From positions 1 through 52,889 of the forward strand of contig JAFQQI010000046.1 of assembly GCA_017411305.1 (NCBI GenBank): a stretch of 52,889 bases of DNA. The letters are read 5' to 3'. The notes below the pieces were generated by a model. That model ran no database searches and was not told the origin of the DNA. It saw nothing but the letters and a program-made list of their open reading frames with translations. This stretch comes from Lachnospiraceae bacterium. GTDB lineage: Bacteria > Bacillota > Clostridia > Lachnospirales > Lachnospiraceae. This document shows positions 7,660-39,954 of this stretch, in pieces. Made by a program: the position numbers and the translations under genes. Position 1 is the stretch's first letter; each line of letters opens with the position of its first letter.

Positions 7660-8757
7660 ATGAAAAAATTTGTAGTTACTGCAGCTGTTATATTAACCAT
7701 AATAATTGTAGGAATCTTTTCGATTACTGCAAAAGAGCAGACTGCGGAAATTACCGATGTACAAACAAAGGTGGGACTGATTTTAAACGGAAGCAGCATG
7801 GATAATAACTGGGGGCAGTCACATTTTGAAGGACTTTCAGAATGCGCAACAAGGCTTAATCTGAGTATTCTTTATCGTGAAAATGTGCCGGAGGATGTTA
7901 GGTGCAGAGAAAATATTCAGGAACTGATAGACGAAGGCTGTGAAATAATTATTTGCAATTCCTTTGGTTTTGGCGAATGGGTTGTGCAGATGGCAGAGAA
8001 ATATCCGGATATTTATTTTTACCATGCAACCGGTGTGGAAGAGGGAGATAATCTGGCAAGCTATTTTGGCAGGATTTATCAGATGCGTTATTTAAGCGGT
8101 ATTGTGGCAGGACTTCAGACAGAAAGTAATGAAATCGGATATGTTGCGGCATTTCCTATTTCAGAAGTAAACCGTGGAATTAATGCATTTGCTTTGGGTG
8201 TGAAAAAGGTAAATCCGGATGCAACGGTCTATGTGGAGTGGACAGGCTCATGGACAGATGATGTGATGTGTGAGGAAGCAGTAAATACATTATTGGCAGA
8301 GCATGATATTGATGTTCTTGCCATGCATTCCGATTCTAACAAGCCCCTTGAGATTGCGGAGGAAAAGGGGATTTGGTCTATCGGATATAATATTGACAAC
8401 AGCGCAAAATATCCTAATACCTATTTAACGGCGCCGGTATGGGAATGGCAAAATTTTTATGAACCGCAGATACTGGCATGTCTGCAAAAGAAATTCCACG
8501 GAAAACATTATTGGGAAGGGGTAGAAACAGGTCTTGTATCTCTTGCTCCTTTTACCGTGAATGTAAAACCGGGAACAGCGGAAGTTGTGGAAGCAGAAAA
8601 AGAGAAGCTTGAAAGCGGTCTGTTTGATGTGTTTTACGGACCGATAACCGACAATGCAGGTAACCTTCGGGTAGCAGAAGGGGAAAGTATGTCGGATGCT
8701 TCCATGCTGAATGAATTTGACTGGTACGTGGAGGGGGTAGTGACAGATGAAGAATAG
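7660..8757 (+). CDS. Membrane-tethered BMP/PnrA-like binding protein, copy 1
   Basis: 365 aa. One N-terminal hydrophobic segment (residues ~4-24) without a lipobox cysteine, so probably an uncleaved signal anchor or a signal peptide. The rest matches the Bmp family of type I periplasmic binding proteins (VGLILNGSSMDNNWGQSHFEG, YLSGIVAGL, IGYVAAFPISEVNRGINAFALG, VEWTGSW). Known family members bind nucleosides (PnrA, BmpA, NupN type) and usually feed an ABC transporter. Here no permease or ATPase is present and the neighbours are a GGDEF regulator and a sensor kinase, so it probably acts as the ligand-sensing part of the kinase. The ribosome site is TAGGAGAAAGG. Ligand unknown. Confidence 0.85.
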   Translation: MKKFVVTAAVILTIIIVGIFSITAKEQTAEITDVQTKVGLILNGSSMDNNWGQSHFEGLSECATRLNLSILYRENVPEDVRCRENIQELIDEGCEIIICNSFGFGEWVVQMAEKYPDIYFYHATGVEEGDNLASYFGRIYQMRYLSGIVAGLQTESNEIGYVAAFPISEVNRGINAFALGVKKVNPDATVYVEWTGSWTDDVMCEEAVNTLLAEHDIDVLAMHSDSNKPLEIAEEKGIWSIGYNIDNSAKYPNTYLTAPVWEWQNFYEPQILACLQKKFHGKHYWEGVETGLVSLAPFTVNVKPGTAEVVEAEKEKLESGLFDVFYGPITDNAGNLRVAEGESMSDASMLNEFDWYVEGVVTDEE

Positions 8758-9844
8758 CAGCAAGCGTACACATATATTATTTTTTTTGGGCACAGCAGTA
8801 CTATTATGTATTGTACTGTCGATTGTTTTTTTTAACAGAACAGATGAAAAAAAGATTAAAGTGGGCTTTATCCTATCAGGCAGTATGGACGAAAACGGAT
8901 GGAACGGAGAGCATTACCGGGCTATTTCTAAGGTGTGCGAAGAATATAAGACAGAGCTACTTGTAAAAGAGAATATTGCAGAGTTTTCAGGACAGTGTGT
9001 TACGGCAGTAGAAGAGCTGATAGCGGAAGGTGCCGAAATGATATTTTTAAACAGCTATGGTTATTCGGAAGAAGTAAGCGGTTTGGTAAGTAATTACCCG
9101 GAGGTGGCTTTTTATGCTAATTCTTCAGAGTATCATACGGAAAATATGACTTCATATTTTGTCAGGATGTACCAGGCCAGATATCTGTCCGGAATCCTGG
9201 CCGGAATGACTACGGATTGCGATAAAATCGGTTATGTGGCAGCTATGTCCAATAACGAAGTGAATCGCGGAATTAACGCTTTTACACTGGGGGTAAAAAG
9301 TGTAAATGAAGATGCAAAAGTGATAGTAACGTGGACAGGCAGTTGGGATAACGAAAAAGCAGAGAAATGGGCAGCAAGAGAATTGATTGAGAAAGCCGGT
9401 GTGGATGTGCTTACCTATCATCAGAACCAGAATTATGTGATTCAGGAGGCTGACGCACAGCAGGTGGCATCTATTGGGTATCATAAGCAATTTGAAGGCT
9501 TTTCCCGGTTATATTTGACATCTGCGGTATATAATCTGGAGCCGGTGTATAGTGAATTAATAAAGGAATATATGAAGGGAAAAGGAAATTCCCGTACGAA
9601 TTATTGGATTGGTATTGAAAACGGAGCAGTAGGATTATCCTCTTATTCTGAAGAAGTGACACCGGAGATGCAAACAGCGGTTGATGAGGCAATAAAACGG
9701 ATGCTTAGCGGTGATGATGTATTTTCAGGTGTGATCTATGATACAGAGGGAAATCTACGCTGCGGTGAAAATGAAATCATCAGTGATGAAATACTGTTAG
9801 AACAGTTTGACTGGTTTGTAGAGGGTGTGGAATTCTATGAATAA
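8747..9844 (+). CDS. Membrane-tethered BMP/PnrA-like binding protein, copy 2
   Basis: 365 aa, starting inside the last codons of copy 1 (11-bp overlap), hence translationally coupled. N-terminal hydrophobic segment around residues 8-28, no lipobox. It shares many blocks with copy 1 (QxRYLSGI, IGYVAA, EVNRGINAF, TWTGSW), so the pair arose by tandem duplication and then diverged, perhaps for two ligands or a heterodimer. As with copy 1, the absence of ABC transporter genes and the overlap with the kinase gene point to signalling rather than uptake. Assignment to the family is firm; the role is inferred. Confidence 0.85.
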   Translation: MKNSSKRTHILFFLGTAVLLCIVLSIVFFNRTDEKKIKVGFILSGSMDENGWNGEHYRAISKVCEEYKTELLVKENIAEFSGQCVTAVEELIAEGAEMIFLNSYGYSEEVSGLVSNYPEVAFYANSSEYHTENMTSYFVRMYQARYLSGILAGMTTDCDKIGYVAAMSNNEVNRGINAFTLGVKSVNEDAKVIVTWTGSWDNEKAEKWAARELIEKAGVDVLTYHQNQNYVIQEADAQQVASIGYHKQFEGFSRLYLTSAVYNLEPVYSELIKEYMKGKGNSRTNYWIGIENGAVGLSSYSEEVTPEMQTAVDEAIKRMLSGDDVFSGVIYDTEGNLRCGENEIISDEILLEQFDWFVEGVEFYE

Positions 9845-12353
9845 CAAATTAGGAAAAAACGGCAGAATTATTGTCAGTGCGTTACTTTTTACATTGGTAG
9901 TTGCTTTTGTAGGGATTTTAATGCACTTTAAACTGCGGGAACTGCTGGTAAATTACATGGAAAATCAAGTGGCAAAACAGGCAGAAGCCTATGCAGGCAT
10001 ATATAGTTCTAAGCTGATTATGGAATTTAGGCGTATGCAGAATTCTGTTGAGTTTATTAACTGGGAAAATATTGACGGGGAGGAAACCATCCGGATTGAA
10101 AAAGTATTTGCAGACCCGGTTGAAGGTGTTCAATATGGTATTTTGGGTGTAGGCGGCAAGGTCCTTTTCGGAGAGATGCTGGACTTTGCGGAATTCCCGG
10201 GAATACAGGATTCTTTTCGCGGGAATCCGGCTGTTTGCTATAGTAAAGATAAGGGAATGTTGCTGACGACCCCCGTGTTTAGCGGAAAAAATATTAAATA
10301 TGTATTGTACGAACTTTTTGATGCAGAATTGTCTGATACACAGGTTACCATGAATTCTTATGCAGGAGATGCCAAGATTATTATTGCATCTAAGAGCGGG
10401 CAAACTATTTATTCTATTTCTGATGAGGAATATCATGGATTATTCGAAAGTAAGGAAGCAGAAATTGCATTTGAAGAAATCCGCAAAAAGTTGGATACCT
10501 CCATTGCGGCAGCAGCACTATATGGTGATAACTTTTTGTTTGTAGCAGAGGTTGACCAAACAGATTTCTACATTGTGGGTATTGTTCCGGAGGATGTGGT
10601 TTCGGAAGGCGTTTCGGATATCTTTACTTTGATAGTATGGGTGTTCGGCCTGTTGCTGTTACTGTTTGGTATCGTGATGATTTATTTATTCGGTATGCAG
10701 GAAAAAGCAAGAGAAAGCGAAGAACTGCGTGCAGCTAAGGAAATGGCAGAAAAGGCGAACCGTGCTAAAAACGATTTCCTGGCAAACATGTCTCATGAAA
10801 TCCGTACACCGATTAATGCCATTACCGGTATGAATGAGATGATTATCAGGGAAAGTGCTGAGAAAGATATCCGCAAATATGCTTTGGATATTAAGTATGC
10901 CAGCCAGACTTTGCTATCACTAATTAATGATATTTTGGATTTCTCCAGAATTGAGTCAGGTAAGATGGAAATAATAGAGGACAATTATGAAGTAGCATAT
11001 CTGCTCCGGGATGCAATTAATATGATCCGTGCCAGGGCGAAAAAGAAAGGACTTCAATTCAATATTTCTATCGACAGCAATATGCCGAAAATTTTGTATG
11101 GTGATGCTGTTAAAGTGAAACAGATATTATCCAATATTCTGAGCAATGCGGTGAAATATACAAAACGGGGAAGTGTTCATTTGACAGCGGACAGTAATGT
11201 TCAGGAAGACGGTACGGTTATTTTACGGATGTCCGTAAAGGATACCGGTATCGGTATCAAAGAAGAAGATATTCCCTTATTGTTTGAAGGCTTTGAACGT
11301 CTTAATATCAAAGAAAACCGTAGCATTGAAGGAACCGGTTTGGGACTTGCCATTATTGACAGGCTGACGAAGCGTATGAACGGAAAGATTACCGTAGAAA
11401 GTGTTTACGGAGAAGGCTCTACATTTACGGTATATCTGCCTCAAAAACTAATAGATGCTACGCCCTTAGGAGATTTTGAAGAAAATTATCTGAAAGACCG
11501 AAAAGATGCAATGGTATATCATGAAAGCTTTACGGCACCGGAGGCGAAGATTTTGGTTGTAGATGATAACGAAATCAATTTGTCCGTGGCAAGAAGCTTA
11601 TTGAAGAAAACGCAGATGCAGATTACAGATTGTAAGAGCGGTGCAGAATGCCTTTCCTTGATGAAGAAAGAACAATATGATGTAATTCTGTTAGACCATA
11701 TGATGCCGGAAATGGATGGCATCGAGACATTAAAACGTTCCAAAGAAATGGAAGATAATCTGTGCAGCGAAACACCGGTAATTGCATTAACTGCCAATGC
11801 AATGTCGGGAGTGCGTGAGATGTATCTGAATGAGGGCTTTGATGACTATCTGAGTAAGCCTATTGAGGGCAAAGCGCTTGAGACGATGCTGATGAAGTAT
11901 CTGTCGAAGGACAAGATTGTGTTGTCAACAGAAAAGGAAAAAGTGACGGTTTCCCAAGTGAAGGCGTCAGAAATACCGGAAGAAAAAACTGTTACATCAG
12001 ATGAAGGACAGGAATATTTAAGTGTTTCTACCGGCATGAAGTACTGTGGTGAAAGTGAAGAGATTTATCGGGAAATGTTGTCCATGTTCTGCAATATCAA
12101 GGAACAGAAGAAAAAGCAGTTGGATGACAGCTTTGCAGAAAAAGACTATACCAATTATGTTGTCTATATCCATGCGTTAAAGTCTTCTTCTTTAAGTGTG
12201 GGCGGAAAAGCTGTTTCGACACTTGCGGCAGAATTAGAAAAAGCCGGCAAGCAAAAGGATTTTGATTATATTAGAGAGAATCATGCAGAGGCTATGAGGT
12301 TGTATGATTTGACCGTAGAAGCAGCTACAGAGTATTTGAAGAATCCTTCTTGA
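9837..12353 (+). CDS. Hybrid sensor histidine kinase with receiver and Hpt domains
   Basis: 838 aa from ATG 9837, overlapping the end of BMP copy 2 by 8 bp; a GTG at 9825 is possible but less likely. Order: TM1 (~10-30), extracytoplasmic region of ~230 residues, TM2 (~261-285), coiled linker, HisKA with phospho-His 320 (NMSHEIRTPINAITGM), HATPase (N box near 432, DTGIGI near 469, GTGLGL), receiver domain from ~570 with Asp near 620 (LLDHMMPEMDG), and C-terminal Hpt with His near 779 (YIHALKSSS). It is a complete four-step phosphorelay in one chain. The extracytoplasmic part could contact the two BMP proteins, as LuxQ does with LuxP. The likely output is the receiver-GGDEF protein of the same operon. 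Confidence 0.9.
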   Translation: MNNKLGKNGRIIVSALLFTLVVAFVGILMHFKLRELLVNYMENQVAKQAEAYAGIYSSKLIMEFRRMQNSVEFINWENIDGEETIRIEKVFADPVEGVQYGILGVGGKVLFGEMLDFAEFPGIQDSFRGNPAVCYSKDKGMLLTTPVFSGKNIKYVLYELFDAELSDTQVTMNSYAGDAKIIIASKSGQTIYSISDEEYHGLFESKEAEIAFEEIRKKLDTSIAAAALYGDNFLFVAEVDQTDFYIVGIVPEDVVSEGVSDIFTLIVWVFGLLLLLFGIVMIYLFGMQEKARESEELRAAKEMAEKANRAKNDFLANMSHEIRTPINAITGMNEMIIRESAEKDIRKYALDIKYASQTLLSLINDILDFSRIESGKMEIIEDNYEVAYLLRDAINMIRARAKKKGLQFNISIDSNMPKILYGDAVKVKQILSNILSNAVKYTKRGSVHLTADSNVQEDGTVILRMSVKDTGIGIKEEDIPLLFEGFERLNIKENRSIEGTGLGLAIIDRLTKRMNGKITVESVYGEGSTFTVYLPQKLIDATPLGDFEENYLKDRKDAMVYHESFTAPEAKILVVDDNEINLSVARSLLKKTQMQITDCKSGAECLSLMKKEQYDVILLDHMMPEMDGIETLKRSKEMEDNLCSETPVIALTANAMSGVREMYLNEGFDDYLSKPIEGKALETMLMKYLSKDKIVLSTEKEKVTVSQVKASEIPEEKTVTSDEGQEYLSVSTGMKYCGESEEIYREMLSMFCNIKEQKKKQLDDSFAEKDYTNYVVYIHALKSSSLSVGGKAVSTLAAELEKAGKQKDFDYIRENHAEAMRLYDLTVEAATEYLKNPS

Positions 12354-31615: not shown

Positions 31616-32878
31616 ATGCCTGAACATCATTTGCGCATGCAACAGACAGATAACACACAGCAGGGAAGACTGCAAATCAATGTCACCTCTTCTTTGGGAT
31701 TAATTCCCATACAGGATGCAACAATTACCATTTCTTATACAGGGGTTCCTGATGTTACCATAGAGAGAATTACTACGGACTCTTCGGGACAATCAGAAGT
31801 CATAGAGCTTGCGGCGCCTCCCATTGAATATAGTATTGAGCCTACCCGGCAGATGCCCTATTCTGAGTATAATATTCAGGTGGAGGCACCGGGATATGAA
31901 ACGGTAAATGTATCCGGAACTGAGATTCTGCCGGAGGTAACTGCGCTCCAACCGATTACCATGACCCCTCTTGCAGGGGCAGGGGAGCCTTCTGAGACGA
32001 TTGTCATTCCGGACCATACCCTGTACGGAGAATATCCGCCCAAGATTCCTGAAGCCGAAATCAAGCCCATGGATGAAAGCGGGGAAATCGTTCTTAGCCG
32101 TGTTGTAATACCGGAATTTGTGGTGGTACATGACGGTGTGCCCCAGGACTCTACGGCACCAAATTACTACGTGAGATATCGGGATTATATTAAAAATGTG
32201 GTTTCTTCAGAGATTTATGCTACCTGGGATGAAAATGCCATTTATGCCAATACGTTAGCCATTATGTCATTTACCCTTAACCGGGTTTATACAGAATGGT
32301 ACAGAAACCGCGGATTTAATTTTACCATTACATCATCTACGGCGTATGATCAGAAATGGATTTATGGCAGAAATATTTATGCAAATGTGGGGAGAATCGT
32401 AGATTCTATTTTTGCAAATTATCTTTCAAGACCCGGTGTCAGACAGCCTATTTTTACCTCCTATTGCGACGGCCAGAGGGTAACCTGCGACGGCCTGAGC
32501 CAGTGGGGCTCTCAATATCTGGCAAATGAAGGGTACAGTCCTATTGAAATTATCCGATACTATTACGGAAGTGACATGTTTATCAATACTGCAGAAAGTG
32601 TTTCCGGAGTGCCGTCCTCCTGGCCGGGTTATGACTTAAATCTTGGTTCCTCTGGTGATAAGGTGCGTCAGATTCAACAGCAGCTTAACAGGATTGCAAG
32701 AAATTATCCTGCCATTCCTACAATATCGGCAGACGGTATTTACGGTCCTGCAACACAGGAAGCGGTAAGAACCTTTCAGGGGATTTTTAATCTGCCGCAG
32801 ACCGGGATTGTGGATTATCCTACCTGGTACAGCATTTCTAACATTTACGTAGGGGTTTCCCGCATAGCAGAACCTTAA
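31616..32878 (+). CDS. SpoIID-like / peptidoglycan-binding domain protein
   Basis: 420 aa with no signal peptide or membrane segment. Residues ~20-115: beta-rich carboxypeptidase-regulatory-like domain (GRLQINVTSSLGLIPIQDATI). Residues ~165-320: helical region ending in TCDGLSQWGSQYLANEGYSPIEIIRYYYG, which resembles the C-terminal block of SpoIID/LytB-type proteins (MSQWGA..GYSYEEILKHYY). Residues ~340-410: PG_binding_1 repeat (LGSSGDKVRQIQQQLNRI, DGIYGPATQEAVRTFQGIF). Peptidoglycan binding or cleavage is likely, perhaps of the spore cortex or at lysis, since export is not explained. The start is fixed by the ribosome site in the hairpin before it. Confidence 0.72.
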   Translation: MPEHHLRMQQTDNTQQGRLQINVTSSLGLIPIQDATITISYTGVPDVTIERITTDSSGQSEVIELAAPPIEYSIEPTRQMPYSEYNIQVEAPGYETVNVSGTEILPEVTALQPITMTPLAGAGEPSETIVIPDHTLYGEYPPKIPEAEIKPMDESGEIVLSRVVIPEFVVVHDGVPQDSTAPNYYVRYRDYIKNVVSSEIYATWDENAIYANTLAIMSFTLNRVYTEWYRNRGFNFTITSSTAYDQKWIYGRNIYANVGRIVDSIFANYLSRPGVRQPIFTSYCDGQRVTCDGLSQWGSQYLANEGYSPIEIIRYYYGSDMFINTAESVSGVPSSWPGYDLNLGSSGDKVRQIQQQLNRIARNYPAIPTISADGIYGPATQEAVRTFQGIFNLPQTGIVDYPTWYSISNIYVGVSRIAEP

Positions 32879-32884
32879 AAGCGG

Positions 32885-32914
32885 TTGCGGAAACGGTTTG
32901 GATAATGGTATACT
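32885..32914 (+). promoter_or_regulatory. Promoter of the DUF5717/5716 operon
   Basis: TTGCGG (32885-32890), 18-bp spacer, TATACT (32909-32914) with a TGG extension before it. About 50 bp from the start codon. Confidence 0.55.
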
Positions 32915-32965: not shown

Positions 32966-35900
32966 GTGCAAAGCGCAGTAGATAAAATCCTGTCAGGAGA
33001 ATTTAGCGTAAATACCCATTCTTTGGATTTTTCCTGTCCGAGAATTGAGCTTTCAGTGCGTCCAAATGAGCAATATGAAGGCAGCTTTACGGTTTTCGGT
33101 CCCGAAGGTCAGGTAACGGAAGGCAGAGTCATGACCAATAGGCTACGTATGAGGTGCCTGACAGAAAAATTCTACGGCAATGAGGAAGAAATTGCATACT
33201 GCTTTGATGCTTCTGATATGGAAGAGGGAGAGTGTGTCAAGGGAGAATTCAGCATTATTTCCAATCGGGGAGAATATGTGATTCCTTTTGAAGTTACGGT
33301 TGCTACCGTGGGATTAACTTCAAGTCTCGGAGACATCCGTAATTTGTTTCACTTTACCAATCTTGCCAGAACGAATTGGGAGGAAGCGGTGAAACTGTTT
33401 TATACCGAAGAGTTTGCCAAGGTATTTCAGGGAGCAGATAAACAGTACTATGCCGTGTACCGAGGTCTTTGCGCAGGAAAAGAGAACCAGCAGAATGTAG
33501 AAGAATTTCTGTTGGAAATTAAAAAGAAGCAAAAGGTAGAATTCCTGCTGGAAGAAGATGAAATCCGCATTTCCAATCCCAAGGAGGATGTGGAATATAA
33601 AATTGTAATCAATCGTAACGGCTGGGGATTTTCTACGCTTAAGGCAGAAACCGACAGCGGATTTATTGTAATAGAGAAAGATACCGTCAGAGACGAGGAT
33701 TTTTTGGGAAATTGCTACAGGCTTCCCTTTTATATTGCAAAGGAAGCCTTACATGCCGGAAAGAACTACGGAGTAATAAAGCTGTATAATGCTTATGTGT
33801 CATTAACAGTAACGGTGACGGTGCATTGTCAGTCCGTTTCCATGAAAGTGCCGGGAAAAAGACTGCGCAAAAATCACCTTATCATGGAGTTGATGCAGTA
33901 TTATGAAGCATTCCGCGCAAAAAAAATACACGCGTCTTTGTGGATGCAGGAAACCGAAAAAATATTAGAACAGTTAGAGCAGACAGATAGCAGAGATTTA
34001 AATACCAAATTGTTCAGGGCACAGCTTTTGATTACCCAGGAGCGATATAATGAGGCAGACTGGTTGTTAAAACAGGTGGATGCTCTGATAGGAGAGCCTT
34101 TTGAGCCTAATAGTTATTGCTATTATTTATATCTGACAACTTTGATTCATACACAGGAAGAATACGTGGAGGATGTTGCTGCCCGGGTAGAACGGATTTT
34201 TGTGCAGAATTCCGAGCAATGGAGAATAGCATGGCTGATGCTGTATTTATCGGATGAATACAGTAAGAGTCCTTCCCGTAAGTGGATGGCACTGGAAGAG
34301 CAGTTTATGAAGGGCTGTAACAGTCCGGTGCTTTACATAGAAGCCTATCATTTATTATTATCTAATCCTACATTGCTGATGAATCTGAAGGATTTTGAAC
34401 AGCAGGTACTTTATTATGCTGCCAAAAAAGATATTTTAAATGAGACAATGGCCCAACAGATTGTATATCTGGCTGCCCGGGAAAAGACTTTTTCTAAGAG
34501 GGTATTCTTTTTGCTGAAGAAATGCTATGAGCTGTTGCCTGAGGATGAAACACTCCAAGTAATCTGTTCCCATCTGATGAAAGGTAATTTAACAGGAAAA
34601 GAATATTTTAAGTGGTATGCTTTAGGAATTGAAAGTAAGCTCAGAATAACAAGATTATATGAGCATTATATGATGTCCTGTGATTTGTCGGAACAGATAC
34701 AGATTCCTAAGATTGTACTGATGTATTTTGCATTCGACAGTAACCTGGACAGTGTACATAATTCCTTCTTGTATGCTTATGTATACAAGCACAGAGAGGA
34801 ATTCCCTGAACTGTATGAAAGCTATCGTATGCAGATAGAGCGGTTTACCGTATCCCAGGCATTGCAGGGTAGGAACAATAAATGGCTGGCGACATTGTAC
34901 AGTCACATTTTCACACCGGCGATGATGACACCGGAAATTGCAGCAGGACTGTCCGAGGCATTGTTTATTCACAGTCTGAAAATTAAAAGAGATAATATAC
35001 GCAAAATTATTTTAATCTACGAAAAAGAACGCAGAGAACAGGTATTTCCTGCTCCCGGGAAGGAACTGTATCTGCCTGTTTTCGGCAGTGATGTGTGTCT
35101 GCTTTTAGAGGACGGAGAGGGAAACCGTTATTGCAGGGAAGAAGATTATGAATTGCAGCGTCTCATGATTCCTGATAAGCTTGCCTATATGGCTGCTCCT
35201 TATGTGGAGAATAAGGAGGAGTTCTTGCTGTGGCAGTGTGAAAGAGGAAAAGCGCTTGCAGTAGTCAATAATGAAAATATCAGACAGATGAGAGTTTTGG
35301 CAGAATCAGAGCTTATTCTGGAATCATTGCAAAAAGAAATCTGTATGAAAGTAATCCATTATTATTATGACAGTGACATGATTCAGGAATTGGATGAATT
35401 CCTGACAGACCTTTCCATCGATCAGATAGCAGCAACTGATTATGCGCAGGCAGTAAGGTTTCTGATTATCAGAGGAATGTATGAGAAAGCATATGAATGG
35501 ATTAAAGCAAGGGGAAGCTTTGCAGTAGAGGCTAAAATGCTGATGCGCCTTTGCAGCTATATGATTGCACTGGAACCGGATATTTGCATAAATGAACTTA
35601 CCGTTCTTGCCATGGCAGCCTTTACGGCAGGCAAATATGATGAAAATATTCTGAACTATCTGGTGAAAAATTACAACGGAACATTAAAGGAAATGCGTAA
35701 CATTTGGAAAGCAGCAAAAGCCTTTGGTGTGGATACCTATGAAATCAGTAACCGGATTTTGGTGCAAATGCTTTATACAGGGGCCTTTATCGGTACGAAA
35801 ACAGAGATTTTCAGGGACTATGTATCGGGAGGTGCTAAAGCAGAGCTGGAAATAGCAGTGCTTGCACAAAGCTGTTTTGATTATTTTGTAGGTGAAAAAA

Positions 35901-36523
35901 TAACAGACGAATATTTGATGCAGGATTTGCAGAGAGTTATTGAAAGACAGGAAGAAATCCCATTGGTATGTAAGCTGGCGTATACTAGATTTTATGCTGA
36001 AAATAAGAAACTGATTAATGAGAATATTTCCAGATACTTAATTGTTTTTTTGCGCCAGTTGCTTGCAGAAAATATGTATTTCCCGTATTTTAAGGAGTAT
36101 GCGGACCATATTGCTTTTATGAGGCAGTTTTCGGACAAGACCATGATACAGCATAAGCTGGAAGAAGGAAGCAGTGCAGTTATCCATTACTTTATGGAAA
36201 AGGATGGCAATAGGCAGGGAGAATATATCCGGGAAGAAATGAAGGATATGTTTTATGGCATTTGTGTGAAGCAATTTATCCTGTTTTTTGGTGAAAGATT
36301 GCAATATTACATTACAGAAACGGATGACGACAAAGAGAGCCTTACCAGAAGCGGAACCTTAAGCCGCAGTGATACCGACAGAGAACAAAAAGAAAGTAAA
36401 TACAGTTTGATTAATGATATTGCCATCGGCAGAACCCTCCATGATGATAATACAATGGAGATGCTTTTGCAGGAGTACTTCGAACAGGAATTTTTGGTAA
36501 AGGAGTTGTTTCATACAATCTGA
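32966..36523 (+). CDS. DUF5717-type large helical-repeat protein
   Basis: 1185 aa, GTG start (AAAGGAG 7 bp before). No signal peptide or membrane segment. Residues ~1-110 and ~215-295 look like beta-sandwich segments; from ~300 onward it is almost entirely helical with TPR/solenoid character (ERYNEADWLLKQVDALIGEPFEPNS region, many YEKAYEWIKA-like pairs). I recall such ~1100-aa proteins as DUF5717, restricted largely to Lachnospiraceae; that name is from memory and unchecked. Its downstream neighbours in the same operon are an Hsp70/actin-fold protein, a TPR protein and a coiled-coil membrane protein. Likely role: large cytoplasmic scaffold. Function unknown. Confidence 0.7.
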   Translation: MQSAVDKILSGEFSVNTHSLDFSCPRIELSVRPNEQYEGSFTVFGPEGQVTEGRVMTNRLRMRCLTEKFYGNEEEIAYCFDASDMEEGECVKGEFSIISNRGEYVIPFEVTVATVGLTSSLGDIRNLFHFTNLARTNWEEAVKLFYTEEFAKVFQGADKQYYAVYRGLCAGKENQQNVEEFLLEIKKKQKVEFLLEEDEIRISNPKEDVEYKIVINRNGWGFSTLKAETDSGFIVIEKDTVRDEDFLGNCYRLPFYIAKEALHAGKNYGVIKLYNAYVSLTVTVTVHCQSVSMKVPGKRLRKNHLIMELMQYYEAFRAKKIHASLWMQETEKILEQLEQTDSRDLNTKLFRAQLLITQERYNEADWLLKQVDALIGEPFEPNSYCYYLYLTTLIHTQEEYVEDVAARVERIFVQNSEQWRIAWLMLYLSDEYSKSPSRKWMALEEQFMKGCNSPVLYIEAYHLLLSNPTLLMNLKDFEQQVLYYAAKKDILNETMAQQIVYLAAREKTFSKRVFFLLKKCYELLPEDETLQVICSHLMKGNLTGKEYFKWYALGIESKLRITRLYEHYMMSCDLSEQIQIPKIVLMYFAFDSNLDSVHNSFLYAYVYKHREEFPELYESYRMQIERFTVSQALQGRNNKWLATLYSHIFTPAMMTPEIAAGLSEALFIHSLKIKRDNIRKIILIYEKERREQVFPAPGKELYLPVFGSDVCLLLEDGEGNRYCREEDYELQRLMIPDKLAYMAAPYVENKEEFLLWQCERGKALAVVNNENIRQMRVLAESELILESLQKEICMKVIHYYYDSDMIQELDEFLTDLSIDQIAATDYAQAVRFLIIRGMYEKAYEWIKARGSFAVEAKMLMRLCSYMIALEPDICINELTVLAMAAFTAGKYDENILNYLVKNYNGTLKEMRNIWKAAKAFGVDTYEISNRILVQMLYTGAFIGTKTEIFRDYVSGGAKAELEIAVLAQSCFDYFVGEKITDEYLMQDLQRVIERQEEIPLVCKLAYTRFYAENKKLINENISRYLIVFLRQLLAENMYFPYFKEYADHIAFMRQFSDKTMIQHKLEEGSSAVIHYFMEKDGNRQGEYIREEMKDMFYGICVKQFILFFGERLQYYITETDDDKESLTRSGTLSRSDTDREQKESKYSLINDIAIGRTLHDDNTMEMLLQEYFEQEFLVKELFHTI

Positions 36524-36544
36524 AACAGATAGTGTGAGGAAAAT

Positions 36545-37864
36545 ATGCTGACAGGACAAAAAGAACAGGCAGGGAAAAAGAATAGCGGAAAAGTAATTGT
36601 GGGCTATGACTTAGGCAGAGTAGTGTCTCAAATCAGCTATTGCCTGCCGGACGGCAGCATGGCAGAAACGGTTTCCAGTGTTGCCGGAACAGAGCAATAT
36701 AACATTCCTACGGTGTTGTGTAAGCGCAAAGGTGTCAATCAGTGGTTTTACGGAAAAGAAGCACTGAAATATGCAGCTGACGGTGAAGGAATACCGGTAG
36801 AGAACCTATTGCTTTTGGCAGAGAGAGGCGAGGATGTTGTAGTGGAAGAGGAAAGCTATGATCCGGTTGCCCTGCTTACCTTGTTTGTGAAACGTAGTTT
36901 GGGTCTTCTTAATATGCAGGTTTCCTTAAACAGAATGGATGCACTTATGTTTACGGTGGAGGATTTGTCACCTCGCATGGTGGATGTGCTTTCCAAGATT
37001 GCAACAGGACTGCAGCTAAAAATACAAAATATTTATTTCCAAAGTCATGTGGAAAGTTTTTATCATTATGTACTTTACCAGCCAAAAGAATTATGGAAAA
37101 ATAATGTGCTTATTTTTGACTACAGCACTCATTTAAAGAGTCTGCATCTGGAATGTAATAAAAGGACAACTCCTCAGGTTGTTTTTATACGCAACAGAGA
37201 ATATCCGTCTATTCAAAGAACTGTTTTTGCTGAGGATGAAGCACAGAGAAATAACGAGAAAAAACGTCTGGATGAGGCTTTTTTACAGGTTGTGGAGGAA
37301 GAAACGGAAGGAAATATGATTTCCACGGTATATTTGCTGGGAGACGGTTTTAAAGATAACTGGGCATCGGAATCCTTAAGGACCTTATGCAGAAACAGAA
37401 GAGTGTTTCAGGGAAATAATCTTTACAGCAAAGGTGCCTGCTATGGTGCAGTAGAACGCTTGACGCCGGGGCAGGAAGGTAAAAATCATGTATTTTTAGG
37501 AAGAGATAAGTTGAAAGCCAATATCGGAATGAAAATCCTGCGCAGAGGTGAGGATTCCTATTTTGCCATATTAGATGCGGGAACCAATTGGTATGAAGTG
37601 ACAGCTGATTTTGAAGTAATCCCGGAAAAGGAAAGTGTATTAGATTTCCTGATAACTCCGCTTACGGGCGGAAATGTAATTGACAGACAGATTGTACTGG
37701 ATGGTTTACCCGAACGACCGGAGCGTACCACCAGACTTAAGATTCATATGGAAATGTCAGCAGTAGATCAGGCAGTGATTACCGTAGAGGATTTGGGCTT
37801 CGGGGAGCTGTTTCCCAGTAGCGGAAAGGCTTGGACCCATACCATCAGCCTGACAGAGCGGTAA
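36545..37864 (+). CDS. Hsp70/actin-fold protein (DUF5716-type)
   Basis: 439 aa, starting 21 bp after the giant helical gene (GTGAGGAAAAT ribosome site). Features of the actin/Hsp70 ATPase fold: phosphate-1-like VIVGYDLGRVVSQISYC near residue 18, a phosphate-2-like but degraded LIFDYSTHLKSLHLE near 190, adenosine-motif-like TVYLLGDGFKDNW near 260, and NLYSKGACYGA near 300 (Hsp70 has V.GAA there). A ~130-residue C-terminal beta-rich region follows, in the place of an Hsp70 substrate domain. Nucleotide binding is likely; hydrolysis is doubtful because the second phosphate loop lacks the usual Gly. I recall these as DUF5716, unchecked. No membrane segment. Confidence 0.7.
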   Translation: MLTGQKEQAGKKNSGKVIVGYDLGRVVSQISYCLPDGSMAETVSSVAGTEQYNIPTVLCKRKGVNQWFYGKEALKYAADGEGIPVENLLLLAERGEDVVVEEESYDPVALLTLFVKRSLGLLNMQVSLNRMDALMFTVEDLSPRMVDVLSKIATGLQLKIQNIYFQSHVESFYHYVLYQPKELWKNNVLIFDYSTHLKSLHLECNKRTTPQVVFIRNREYPSIQRTVFAEDEAQRNNEKKRLDEAFLQVVEEETEGNMISTVYLLGDGFKDNWASESLRTLCRNRRVFQGNNLYSKGACYGAVERLTPGQEGKNHVFLGRDKLKANIGMKILRRGEDSYFAILDAGTNWYEVTADFEVIPEKESVLDFLITPLTGGNVIDRQIVLDGLPERPERTTRLKIHMEMSAVDQAVITVEDLGFGELFPSSGKAWTHTISLTER

Positions 37865-37893
37865 CGGGGCAGAAAAAAGGAGGTGTGAAAGCA

Positions 37894-38727
37894 ATGGGAA
37901 GAACCTTATTATGTACGGGCAAATATGCGGAAAAGCCCTATCATTTTGAGAATATTTTCGTGAATGTTTATTGCATAGAAGAACTTTGCTATTTGCTTTC
38001 AGCAAATCCTTTTATCATAGATGCAAGCATCATGGACAGAAAGCTGGCAGAATGGATAGATACAGAATGCGGACTATCAGAACTGGGGCATCAGTTACTT
38101 AATCTGCTGCATAAAGGAATTCAGCCGGGGATTTTTGTGGATGCAATTCTTGACTATGTAAATTATAATACCAAAGCAGAGCGGGAAAGAATCCAGGAAG
38201 CCTTACAGGGAAGTGCGGGACTTACGGAGCTTGAGCGCGCCAAAAAGCAGGGAGACTATCTGGTAAAGAACAGAAAGTATCAGCTTGCTATAGCAGAGTA
38301 CGACAAGATATTAATGCAATTACCGGAGGCAGAAACAGAGCTTCGGGCATCGGTATATCACAATATGGGTGCCGCGTACGGAAATTTGTTTCAGTTTGAA
38401 AGTGCGGCCAAATACTTTAAACGCGCTTATGAACAAAATGGGCAGGAGGAATCCTGCATCCGGTATCTGATAGCACAACGTGAGTTAATGTCAGAGGGAG
38501 AATACATTGCTTTTCTTGCGGAAAATGCAAAGTATTATGAAGCTTCATTAAAGGTGGAGCGGCTACTTCAGCAGACAAAAGCTCAGTTTGAAGCAACAAG
38601 GGAAAACCGAATGTTATCTGCCCTTAAAATCTACAAGGATGAGGGAAATGCCGCTTCCTACTATGAAGAAATGGACAGAATTATTTCAAGGCTGAAGGAA
38701 AACTATAGGGAAAGCGTAACAGGCTAA
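37894..38727 (+). CDS. TPR-repeat protein of the DUF5717/5716 operon
   Basis: 277 aa from ATG 37894, which has a full AAGGAGGTG ribosome site; earlier in-frame starts lie inside the preceding gene. N-terminal ~110 residues: helical domain with no match I know. Residues ~125-200: two TPRs (AKKQGDYLVKNRKYQLAIAEYDKIL, YHNMGAAYGNLFQFESAAKYFKRAYE). C-terminus helical/coiled. Soluble. It probably links the Hsp70-fold protein to the others. Function unknown. Confidence 0.72.
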   Translation: MGRTLLCTGKYAEKPYHFENIFVNVYCIEELCYLLSANPFIIDASIMDRKLAEWIDTECGLSELGHQLLNLLHKGIQPGIFVDAILDYVNYNTKAERERIQEALQGSAGLTELERAKKQGDYLVKNRKYQLAIAEYDKILMQLPEAETELRASVYHNMGAAYGNLFQFESAAKYFKRAYEQNGQEESCIRYLIAQRELMSEGEYIAFLAENAKYYEASLKVERLLQQTKAQFEATRENRMLSALKIYKDEGNAASYYEEMDRIISRLKENYRESVTG

Positions 38728-38769
38728 TCGTGAAAGCAAAAAAGCACTTGAGAGGGAATAGGAAGACAG

Positions 38770-39954
38770 ATGGGTATTATACAGAAATTCCTGGAATGGA
38801 AAAAGAATAGAGAAAATCCCATATATGAAATAGATGACTGGAACGAAATTGTTTATGACAGAGACGACCTGCAGATAAACGATAAGGGACAGCGTCAGGA
38901 GTACGTGAAAGGGTGCCTGGAGCAGATTGCGGAGGCTTCCAAAGAACTTGAGAACCTTCAGTTTGAGTACAATATGGTAACCTCCTACCTTAAGGATATG
39001 GAAGAAATTGAAGCCCTTCCGGAAGGAGAAAAAGAAATTCTCAGGGAACGGGCCAAAAAAATTGATGCGCTGGAGAATCAGCAGTCCGGTTATCGTGAAC
39101 GGAAAAAACGTATGGATGAAGCCCAGTTCCGTCAGATGGAGCGCATGGAAGAAGAGGTTTTGGAAGGGTGCAGAAAGCTCAGTGAAGCAGAGGAATATCA
39201 GGATCTTATCAAGCGTGATTTACGAAGACTGGACGGCGAAAAACAGGCCTATTATTTCCGTAAGAATGAACTGCACAGAATACTGGAGGATACCAGAGCC
39301 ATGGCTGTTGTGTGCAGTACTGCGGTAGTAGTCTGCATCCTGATTCTGATGGTAATGCAGTTCGGCTTTGAAATGAATACCAAGCTTGGTTATTTTGCAG
39401 CTGCTGCACTGGGTGCCGTTGCCATTACCGCAATTTTTGTAAAGCATAATAATTCCGTAACAGAGCTTGCCCGGGTGGATAATGCCATCGGCAGGTTAAT
39501 CCGCCTGCAGAATACGGTCAAAATCAGATATGTGAACAATACCAATCTTTTGGATTATCTGTATTTGAAATATAAAGTTTCCAGTGCAGGGGAACTTAGT
39601 AAGAACTGGCAGCAGTATGTGGAAGAAAAAGAAGAAAGAGAACAGTACCGACAGGCAGAGCGTGACCTTGATTTATATCAGAAGGAACTTTTACATGAGC
39701 TGAGACGTTATCAGGTGAAGGACCCGATGGTATGGTTGCATCAGATACCTGCACTTCTTGACAAGAAGGAAATGATAGAAATTCGTCATAGTCTGATTAT
39801 CAGGAGACAGTCTCTGCGCAGACGGATGGATTACAATAAAGAGGTGATTGCCGGAAAGGCACAGGCAGAAATTAAGGACTTGGTAGAAAAGTATCCTAAG
39901 TATGCGAAAGAAATTTTAAGTATCGTCGATGATTACGAGAAAGACTTTTCATAA
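38770..39954 (+). CDS. Coiled-coil membrane protein of the DUF5717/5716 operon
   Basis: 394 aa. Long charged coiled coil (~55-175), then two membrane helices close together (AVVCSTAVVVCILILMVMQFG near 180-200 and YFAAAALGAVAITAIFV near 205-222), then a second coiled coil (~225-340). The two helices place both coiled coils on the same, probably cytoplasmic, side. It would anchor the operon's soluble partners at the membrane. I do not recognise the family. Confidence 0.72.
   Translation: MGIIQKFLEWKKNRENPIYEIDDWNEIVYDRDDLQINDKGQRQEYVKGCLEQIAEASKELENLQFEYNMVTSYLKDMEEIEALPEGEKEILRERAKKIDALENQQSGYRERKKRMDEAQFRQMERMEEEVLEGCRKLSEAEEYQDLIKRDLRRLDGEKQAYYFRKNELHRILEDTRAMAVVCSTAVVVCILILMVMQFGFEMNTKLGYFAAAALGAVAITAIFVKHNNSVTELARVDNAIGRLIRLQNTVKIRYVNNTNLLDYLYLKYKVSSAGELSKNWQQYVEEKEEREQYRQAERDLDLYQKELLHELRRYQVKDPMVWLHQIPALLDKKEMIEIRHSLIIRRQSLRRRMDYNKEVIAGKAQAEIKDLVEKYPKYAKEILSIVDDYEKDFS

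Follow-up and report, generated by a model that had tools for sequence, protein, structure and literature searches.

In this study, we analysed a 52,889-nucleotide stretch of Lachnospiraceae DNA (contig JAFQQI010000046.1), referred to here as the window, in which four co-directional genes, named A to D, span positions 32966-39954 on the + strand according to the checked ORF coordinates. An initial annotation had placed a four-gene operon there, and all four open reading frames were found where it put them. Gene A (32966-36523, +) has a GTG start and encodes 1185 aa, gene B (36545-37864, +) encodes 439 aa, gene C (37894-38727, +) encodes 277 aa when counted from its ATG, the ORF list giving an earlier TTG start, and gene D (38770-39954, +) encodes 394 aa. 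The intergenic spacing in the window is 21 nt between A and B, 29 nt between B and C and 42 nt between C and D, and Shine-Dalgarno-like stretches can be recognized by eye upstream of A, B and C; across the loci compared below, the median gaps are 15, -4 and 14 nt, respectively, when the most upstream start codon is used for each gene. A putative promoter-like site, also identified by eye and below the threshold of our scan, precedes A at 32885-32914 (+) and consists of a weak -35 element TTGCGG (32885-32890), a spacing of 18 nt and an extended -10 element of the form TGG-TATACT (TGGTATACT, 32906-32914). A consensus promoter scan of the 87-nt gap before A found no 9/12 site, and a single promoter ahead of A is plausible but putative. 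In 32 of 60 loci, A and its upstream neighbour are divergently oriented, and therefore A starts the transcription unit in those loci.

The suggestion that A and B are DUF5717 and DUF5716 proteins was borne out by Pfam scores far above the cut-offs: A matches PF18984 (E=0; 1031.6 bits) and PF18983 (2e-100; 336.4 bits), with a gathering cut-off of 25, and B matches PF18980 (DUF5716_C; 5.6e-110; 367.4 bits against a gathering score of 34.7). These families had been thought to be largely confined to Lachnospiraceae, and this holds in the samples that we searched. With one genome taken per genus, DUF5716_C is present in 145 of 150 Lachnospiraceae genomes, and in 122 of the 125 with a completeness of at least 90% and a contamination of at most 5%. 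Among 291 genomes drawn from the whole class it was found in ten, all Lachnospiraceae, and in none of the 281 others; 261 of the latter are given as a total rather than row by row, but the class-wide listing was sorted by kinship, and its unmatched rows start outside the family. In a phylum-wide draw of 398 genomes, DUF5717_N matched five, again all Lachnospiraceae. Five family genomes have no B, and three of these carry A: in two (G098 and G128) the match to A ends less than 40 bases from a contig end, and in the third (G146) A stands without B, C or D on a 19.6-kb contig. A or B is thus found in 148/150 family genomes. DUF5716_C gives a single match in 143 of the 145 genomes, the remaining two being an assembly with 6% contamination and two matches (G129) and one with two pieces on the same contig (G137), and within the genus of the window B is present in 30/30 genomes.

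Gene order was compared in 61 loci, namely the window and 60 further loci, which were picked non-randomly for range and long contigs. The A-B-C order on a common strand is kept in 61/61 loci, and since these come from different genera, the arrangement exceeds chance. Among 80 named close relatives, A, B and C were all found in 77, and in the remaining three the contig stops within or right beside the operon. A-B-C is thus an invariant unit in the 61 compared loci. The accessible portions of the literature yielded no paper on this operon, and the names DUF5717 and DUF5716 appear there in a lone passing mention on an unrelated subject.

The AlphaFold model of A (pLDDT 87.4, pTM 0.59), together with structural matches, gives a domain order of two MSP/PapD/ASH-like beta-sandwiches, an alpha-solenoid, an inner beta domain, a second solenoid, a C-terminal beta domain and C-terminal helices. 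The predicted structure of the N-terminal region has the MSP/PapD/ASH domain fold, and structural matches place the tandem sandwiches at residues 16-291 (33011-33838, +). Residues 294-1055 (33845-36130, +) form, according to the secondary structure of the model and Foldseek, a TPR/HAT-like alpha-solenoid with a beta domain inserted at 668-732, which is in agreement with the scaffold solenoid proposed earlier. The Foldseek matches of this solenoid are chains from IFT-A, Ski2-3-8, Ctr9/Paf1 and NatA entries. On the basis of this model, A may be regarded as a scaffold protein, with the reservation that these structural matches are to common folds.

The 439-aa protein B had been predicted to have an Hsp70/actin-like fold, and the Hsp70 part of this prediction is well supported. 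DnaK matches B in profile comparisons, a confident AlphaFold model (pLDDT 89.1, pTM 0.84) contains the Hsp70 nucleotide-binding-domain (NBD) fold, and DnaK and Ssz1 are the top structural matches among those listed. In one structural search, 48 of the 50 listed matches are Hsp70, Hsp110 or Ssz1 chains, while the remaining pair are unnamed chains from ciliary central-pair entries; in a second search, all 50 listed matches are Hsp70, Hsp110 or Ssz1 entries. The NBD is followed by a putative SBD-beta-like sandwich, with strands at residues 315-435, and both parts can be aligned jointly to 7kru_A over 390 residues with an rmsd of 6.6 A. In the model the chain stops at residue 439 right after the sandwich, with no alpha-helical lid (SBD-alpha). 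In 44 B sequences aligned with the organism's own DnaK, and with motif residues named after DnaK, the phosphate-1 GTT, the phosphate-2 GGGT and the equivalent of Lys70 are not conserved as aligned, although the first Asp is retained in 38/44. The stretch corresponding to subdomain IIB is absent from all 44 sequences, and the distance from the phosphate-2 Asp to the adenosine-motif Gly is 59-78 residues, compared with 143 in the organism's own DnaK; in 74 closer relatives it is 59-99 residues. As B is without subdomain IIB, the lid and most of the catalytic motifs, we refer to it as a pseudo-Hsp70.

The loss of these motifs together with the missing IIB stretch makes it unlikely that B is an active ATPase, and it has probably lost its ATPase engine. 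This weakens the earlier proposal that B is a nucleotide-binding protein; however, residual nucleotide binding may persist, since the pocket residues Gly20, Asp22, Gly266 and Lys296-Gly297 are still conserved. The same features bear on the suggestion that the operon encodes a bacterial cytoskeleton, in which B would polymerize in an actin-like manner and A and D would anchor the filament at the membrane. B does have the actin/Hsp70 superfamily fold and the operon does provide a membrane coiled-coil partner in D. However, the top structural matches of B, among those listed, belong to the Hsp70 family, its nucleotide motifs are degenerate, and it is missing the stretch for subdomain IIB, which in actin contributes to the filament. 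B is therefore unlikely to be a cytoskeletal filament, and we give this cytoskeletal reading as a whole very little credence.

By its sequence, C is a TPR protein, as had been proposed. Its conserved N-terminal domain carries the motif VYCIEELCY or IYSIEELCYY and precedes a short TPR array. The Pfam TPR matches of the single sequence are weak and all below the gathering scores (23 against 27 for TPR_2), but a profile built from 26 C proteins matched TPR chains in the PDB, the best being an engineered TPR (E 4.8e-30). Apart from weak TPR-like matches, no paralogue of C besides the operon copy was found in the genome of the window, and in the same genome B is single-copy alongside two full-length Hsp70s. 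In five of the 61 loci (L074-L077 and L079), B and C are a single open frame of 684-723 aa, in which Pfam recognizes DUF5716_C in 5/5 and weak TPR matches in 4/5; all five of these genomes are without D and without flhA. A repeated origin of the fusion was considered, as parsimony requires two changes, and was dropped, as the AU test does not reject a single clade (p 0.084). Judging indirectly, from the B-C fusions and the order of the operon, A, B and C may form a physical complex.

An alternative that has to be weighed here is an active chaperone machine, with B as an ATP-driven Hsp70, C as its co-chaperone and A as a scaffold for clients. The Hsp70 fold of B with its putative SBD-beta-like sandwich and the presence of a TPR partner are in agreement with this idea, as is the htpG relative located close by in 34 of 80 close relatives and in the window. 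Family-wide, however, htpG is near in just 3/61 loci, the window included, so that the proximity is confined to one clade, and we abandoned a functional htpG link for this reason. With the catalytic motifs and the IIB stretch of B lost and no lid present, we consider an active chaperone machine improbable.

D is predicted to consist of a coiled coil, a transmembrane (TM) hairpin and a second coiled coil, as the initial annotation had proposed; the hairpin is read from two hydropathy peaks (sliding-window starts 177-178 and 206). Residues 174-226 (39289-39447, +) would cross the membrane as two TM helices joined by a very short loop on the outside, which would place both long, presumed coiled-coil arms in the cytosol. 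A conserved C-terminal region contains RHxLxxRRQKLR. D of the window has no Pfam match below E 0.02, 26 D proteins gave no consistent Pfam family (the most shared, DUF2207_C, in 4/26), and the D profile matched nothing in the PDB below E 0.069. While the A-B-C part of the proposed four-gene unit stands, D does not belong to its constant portion: it is present in 26/61 loci, directly after C in all 26, and it switches between presence and absence nine times on the tree of protein A. Among the 80 close relatives D was found in 73, the others being two contig ends, four Eisenbergiella loci (L162, L164, L165 and L175) and one further locus (L177). A search with a D profile, which recovered 11/11 known positives, found no D elsewhere in 40 genomes (35 D-less and five B-less) and none in 14 genomes outside the family. 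Seven further family genomes gave D in five, none in G391 and a weak match on a different contig in G427 (E 4.5e-4); the latter two, of which G427 has B, are outside the set tested for FlhA.

The occurrence of D follows one flagellar type. FlhA (TIGR01398) and SpoIVA (TIGR02836) were tested together in 63 genomes, and among the operon-bearing genomes flhA is present in 26/26 with D versus 7/35 without D (Fisher 3.6e-11); one of these FlhA matches (G144) is partial and, if scored absent, the former count becomes 25/26. In the same test, spoIVA shows no link with D (18/26 versus 25/35, p 1.0), and a sporulation link of D was rejected. A tree of 34 FlhA proteins has two deep clades with 100/100 support. 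Clade I comprises all 26 D-positive genomes and G029, and clade II all seven flagellated genomes without D; the remaining 28 of the 35 D-less genomes are without flhA. D and type-I FlhA thus agree in 61/61 operon-bearing genomes, with the qualification that the FlhA types were split after the exceptions to the match between D and flhA had been seen, the tree itself being blind to D. The additional clade I genome, G029, gave no match to A, B or D in an assembly that is 93% complete. FlhF (over the cut-off) and a MinD-like FlhG candidate adjoin FlhA in G116 and in the genome of the window; in two type-II genomes no FlhF was seen by eye within the 40 kb fetched around FlhA, and in both a ParA-like ATPase lies near FlhA in the same 40 kb. 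The part of the literature available on individual species contributes one point: Eisenbergiella tayi is tabulated as non-motile and without flagella (PMC5741734, seen as an excerpt), and its locus L164, without D, fits this listing. The excerpt of PMC7738495 has no motility line for Eisenbergiella porci, and PMC3720852, which deals with the motility loci of Eubacterium and Roseburia, contains none of the words Hsp70, coiled and flhF.

These observations show that D is dispensable and tracks one flagellar type. The link itself could be indirect, through lifestyle or co-regulation. One explanation would be shared ancestry or lifestyle without any functional link, and indeed the two traits cluster on the tree and just six supported independent contrasts are available. 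All six agree, however (p 0.031, on a tree of protein A rather than of species), and the 61/61 agreement is kept although D and type-I FlhA need nine changes each on that tree. As spoIVA shows no link in the same test and flagellated genomes with the other FlhA type are without D, we regard this explanation as unlikely. Somewhat less unlikely, but still a minority view, is that D is an independent flagellar accessory gene, which resides in the operon for co-expression and is no subunit of an A-B-C assembly; D is missing wherever type-I FlhA is missing while A-B-C is unchanged. Against this stand the position of D directly behind C in every locus that has it and its absence from the rest of the 35 D-less genomes, since one would expect a free flagellar gene to have joined the flagellar loci of some lineages.

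The surroundings of the operon are less constant. Downstream of C or D, the genes vary by clade; those named by eye from sequence are a recurrent 880-aa valS-like gene, a folC-like gene and purine genes. A zinc-ribbon/TPR/TM protein is found in 8/61 loci, further along and outside the unit. The initial annotation had stated that no phage, toxin or transport genes accompany the operon and had considered a core role more likely than defence. No defence or phage family matched A-D at E 0.001, and when five neighbours were compared with the defence library, an ABC-transporter ATPase was the sole match, as is usual for ATPases. The statement on transport needs correction, as the genes behind D in the window encode an amino-acid ABC transporter; as a neighbour this transporter is inconstant, a relative of the binding protein being found in 15/61 loci. 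We also considered that the operon replaces FtsA and rejected this idea: TIGR01174 is over the cut-off in 0/30 Lachnospiraceae but also in just 5/30 other genomes, and with 59/60 matching at E <=0.001 the two groups are not clearly set apart.

Taken together, we favour, with moderate confidence, a model in which A-B-C is a cytosolic scaffold assembly based on a non-enzymatic Hsp70, with D as a membrane tether for a task tied to the type-I flagellum. According to this model, A, B and C encode subunits of one assembly that would be core to Lachnospiraceae. A would be the scaffold, with its paired MSP/PapD/ASH-like domains and long TPR-like solenoid, B, like Ssz1, a structural or peptide-holding component and not an ATPase motor, and C the dedicated TPR partner or adaptor of B, joined with it in one chain in some species. 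As A-B-C is retained in 28 genomes without flhA, its main task is not flagellar. D would be an optional subunit, a membrane hairpin with cytoplasmic coiled coils through which the assembly is tethered to the inner membrane, and it would be kept only where a type-I flagellum, that is the FlhF-bearing fla/che type, is built. The tethered form would most likely serve the assembly, placement or control of this flagellum or the linked chemotaxis.

Lachnospiraceae rank with the most abundant bacteria of the human gut, and a single-copy operon in nearly all of their sampled genera may be unrecognized core cell machinery. The evidence for a disarmed Hsp70, the B-C fusion and the match between D and one flagellar type in 61/61 genomes make its role directly testable. 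If the model is true, a bacterial Ssz1-like pseudo-chaperone or a new flagellum-tied factor would be relevant to chaperones, bacterial cell biology and the gut microbiota.

With regard to known systems, the Pfam entries PF18984, PF18983 and PF18980, of which A and B are members well above the cut-offs, carry no function; what this study adds to them is the operon survey, the B-C fusions, the pseudo-Hsp70 assignment and the link to FlhA. The two N-terminal sandwiches of A match the folds of MSP/PapD/ASH proteins such as FimC, VAP, CEP192 and HYDIN, but the identity is about 4-12%, and A is bacterial, presumably cytosolic, and runs on into a TPR-like solenoid. B shares with DnaK and other canonical Hsp70s (PF00012) the NBD fold and, putatively, the SBD-beta-like sandwich, 7kru_A representing the stimulating state, but these proteins have the IIB stretch, the lid and the catalytic motifs that B is without. 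By analogy, the closest model for B may be Ssz1 of the yeast ribosome-associated complex, with its structural or peptide-holding rather than motor role. However, the ATPase domain of Ssz1 has been solved with ATP and magnesium (4gni, according to the entry title), whereas B is without the IIB stretch; Ssz1 works with a J-domain partner, Zuo1, whereas none was seen with B, which is accompanied by a TPR protein and a giant scaffold; and Ssz1-Zuo1 is found in yeast, whereas A-B-C is bacterial and restricted to one family. We therefore place the system among pseudo-Hsp70 complexes, and it is possible that it is a categorically new assembly. More tentatively, and with more doubt than we attach to the favoured model, A-B-C(-D) might represent a family-wide, non-enzymatic bacterial assembly of a pseudo-Hsp70 with a giant ASH-TPR scaffold, which D, as a membrane subunit, would plug into a single flagellar type, where it could serve for instance as a landmark or assembly platform together with FlhF/FlhG.

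Directly upstream of A, the gene for the DUF5717 scaffold, the window encodes a protein with a peptidoglycan-binding domain and a weak SpoIID/LytB match (31616-32878). A relative of this protein is found near the operon in 46 of the 80 close relatives; across the family, relatives are present in only two of the 61 loci, the window counted. A conserved protein of another kind, to which zinc-ribbon, TPR and single-TM features were assigned by eye, lies past a valS-like gene in 8/61 loci (L092:1910-3280, L081:11739-13235, L077:47-1663 and five more) and measures 445-538 aa in complete copies.

Two records of the operon are unusual. All four genes, A to D, are present in L161, a record titled Candidatus Gastranaerophilales, whose B protein is 48% identical to that of the window; this assembly is probably mislabelled or contaminated. 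In L242, from genome G146, A is intact (8415-12154) and is followed by unrelated ORFs, with none of B, C or D after it, so that either the operon has really come apart in this genome or the assembly is at fault.

The type-II FlhA proteins of G046 (L220) and G149 (L222) are placed very near that of G015 (L217), although the A proteins of these genomes fall into clades far apart, which suggests that the second flagellar system has moved horizontally within the Lachnospiraceae. In the type-I flagellar/chemotaxis region, where FlhF lies beside FlhA, two proteins encoded downstream of a sigma-factor-like gene (L234:5342-6934 and L234:3556-4179) had no NCBIfam match at an E value of 1e-5.

Besides B, the DUF5716 pseudo-Hsp70, the window's own genome encodes two full-length DnaK-like Hsp70 proteins, on G000:C68 and G000:C33 (L180 and L181).
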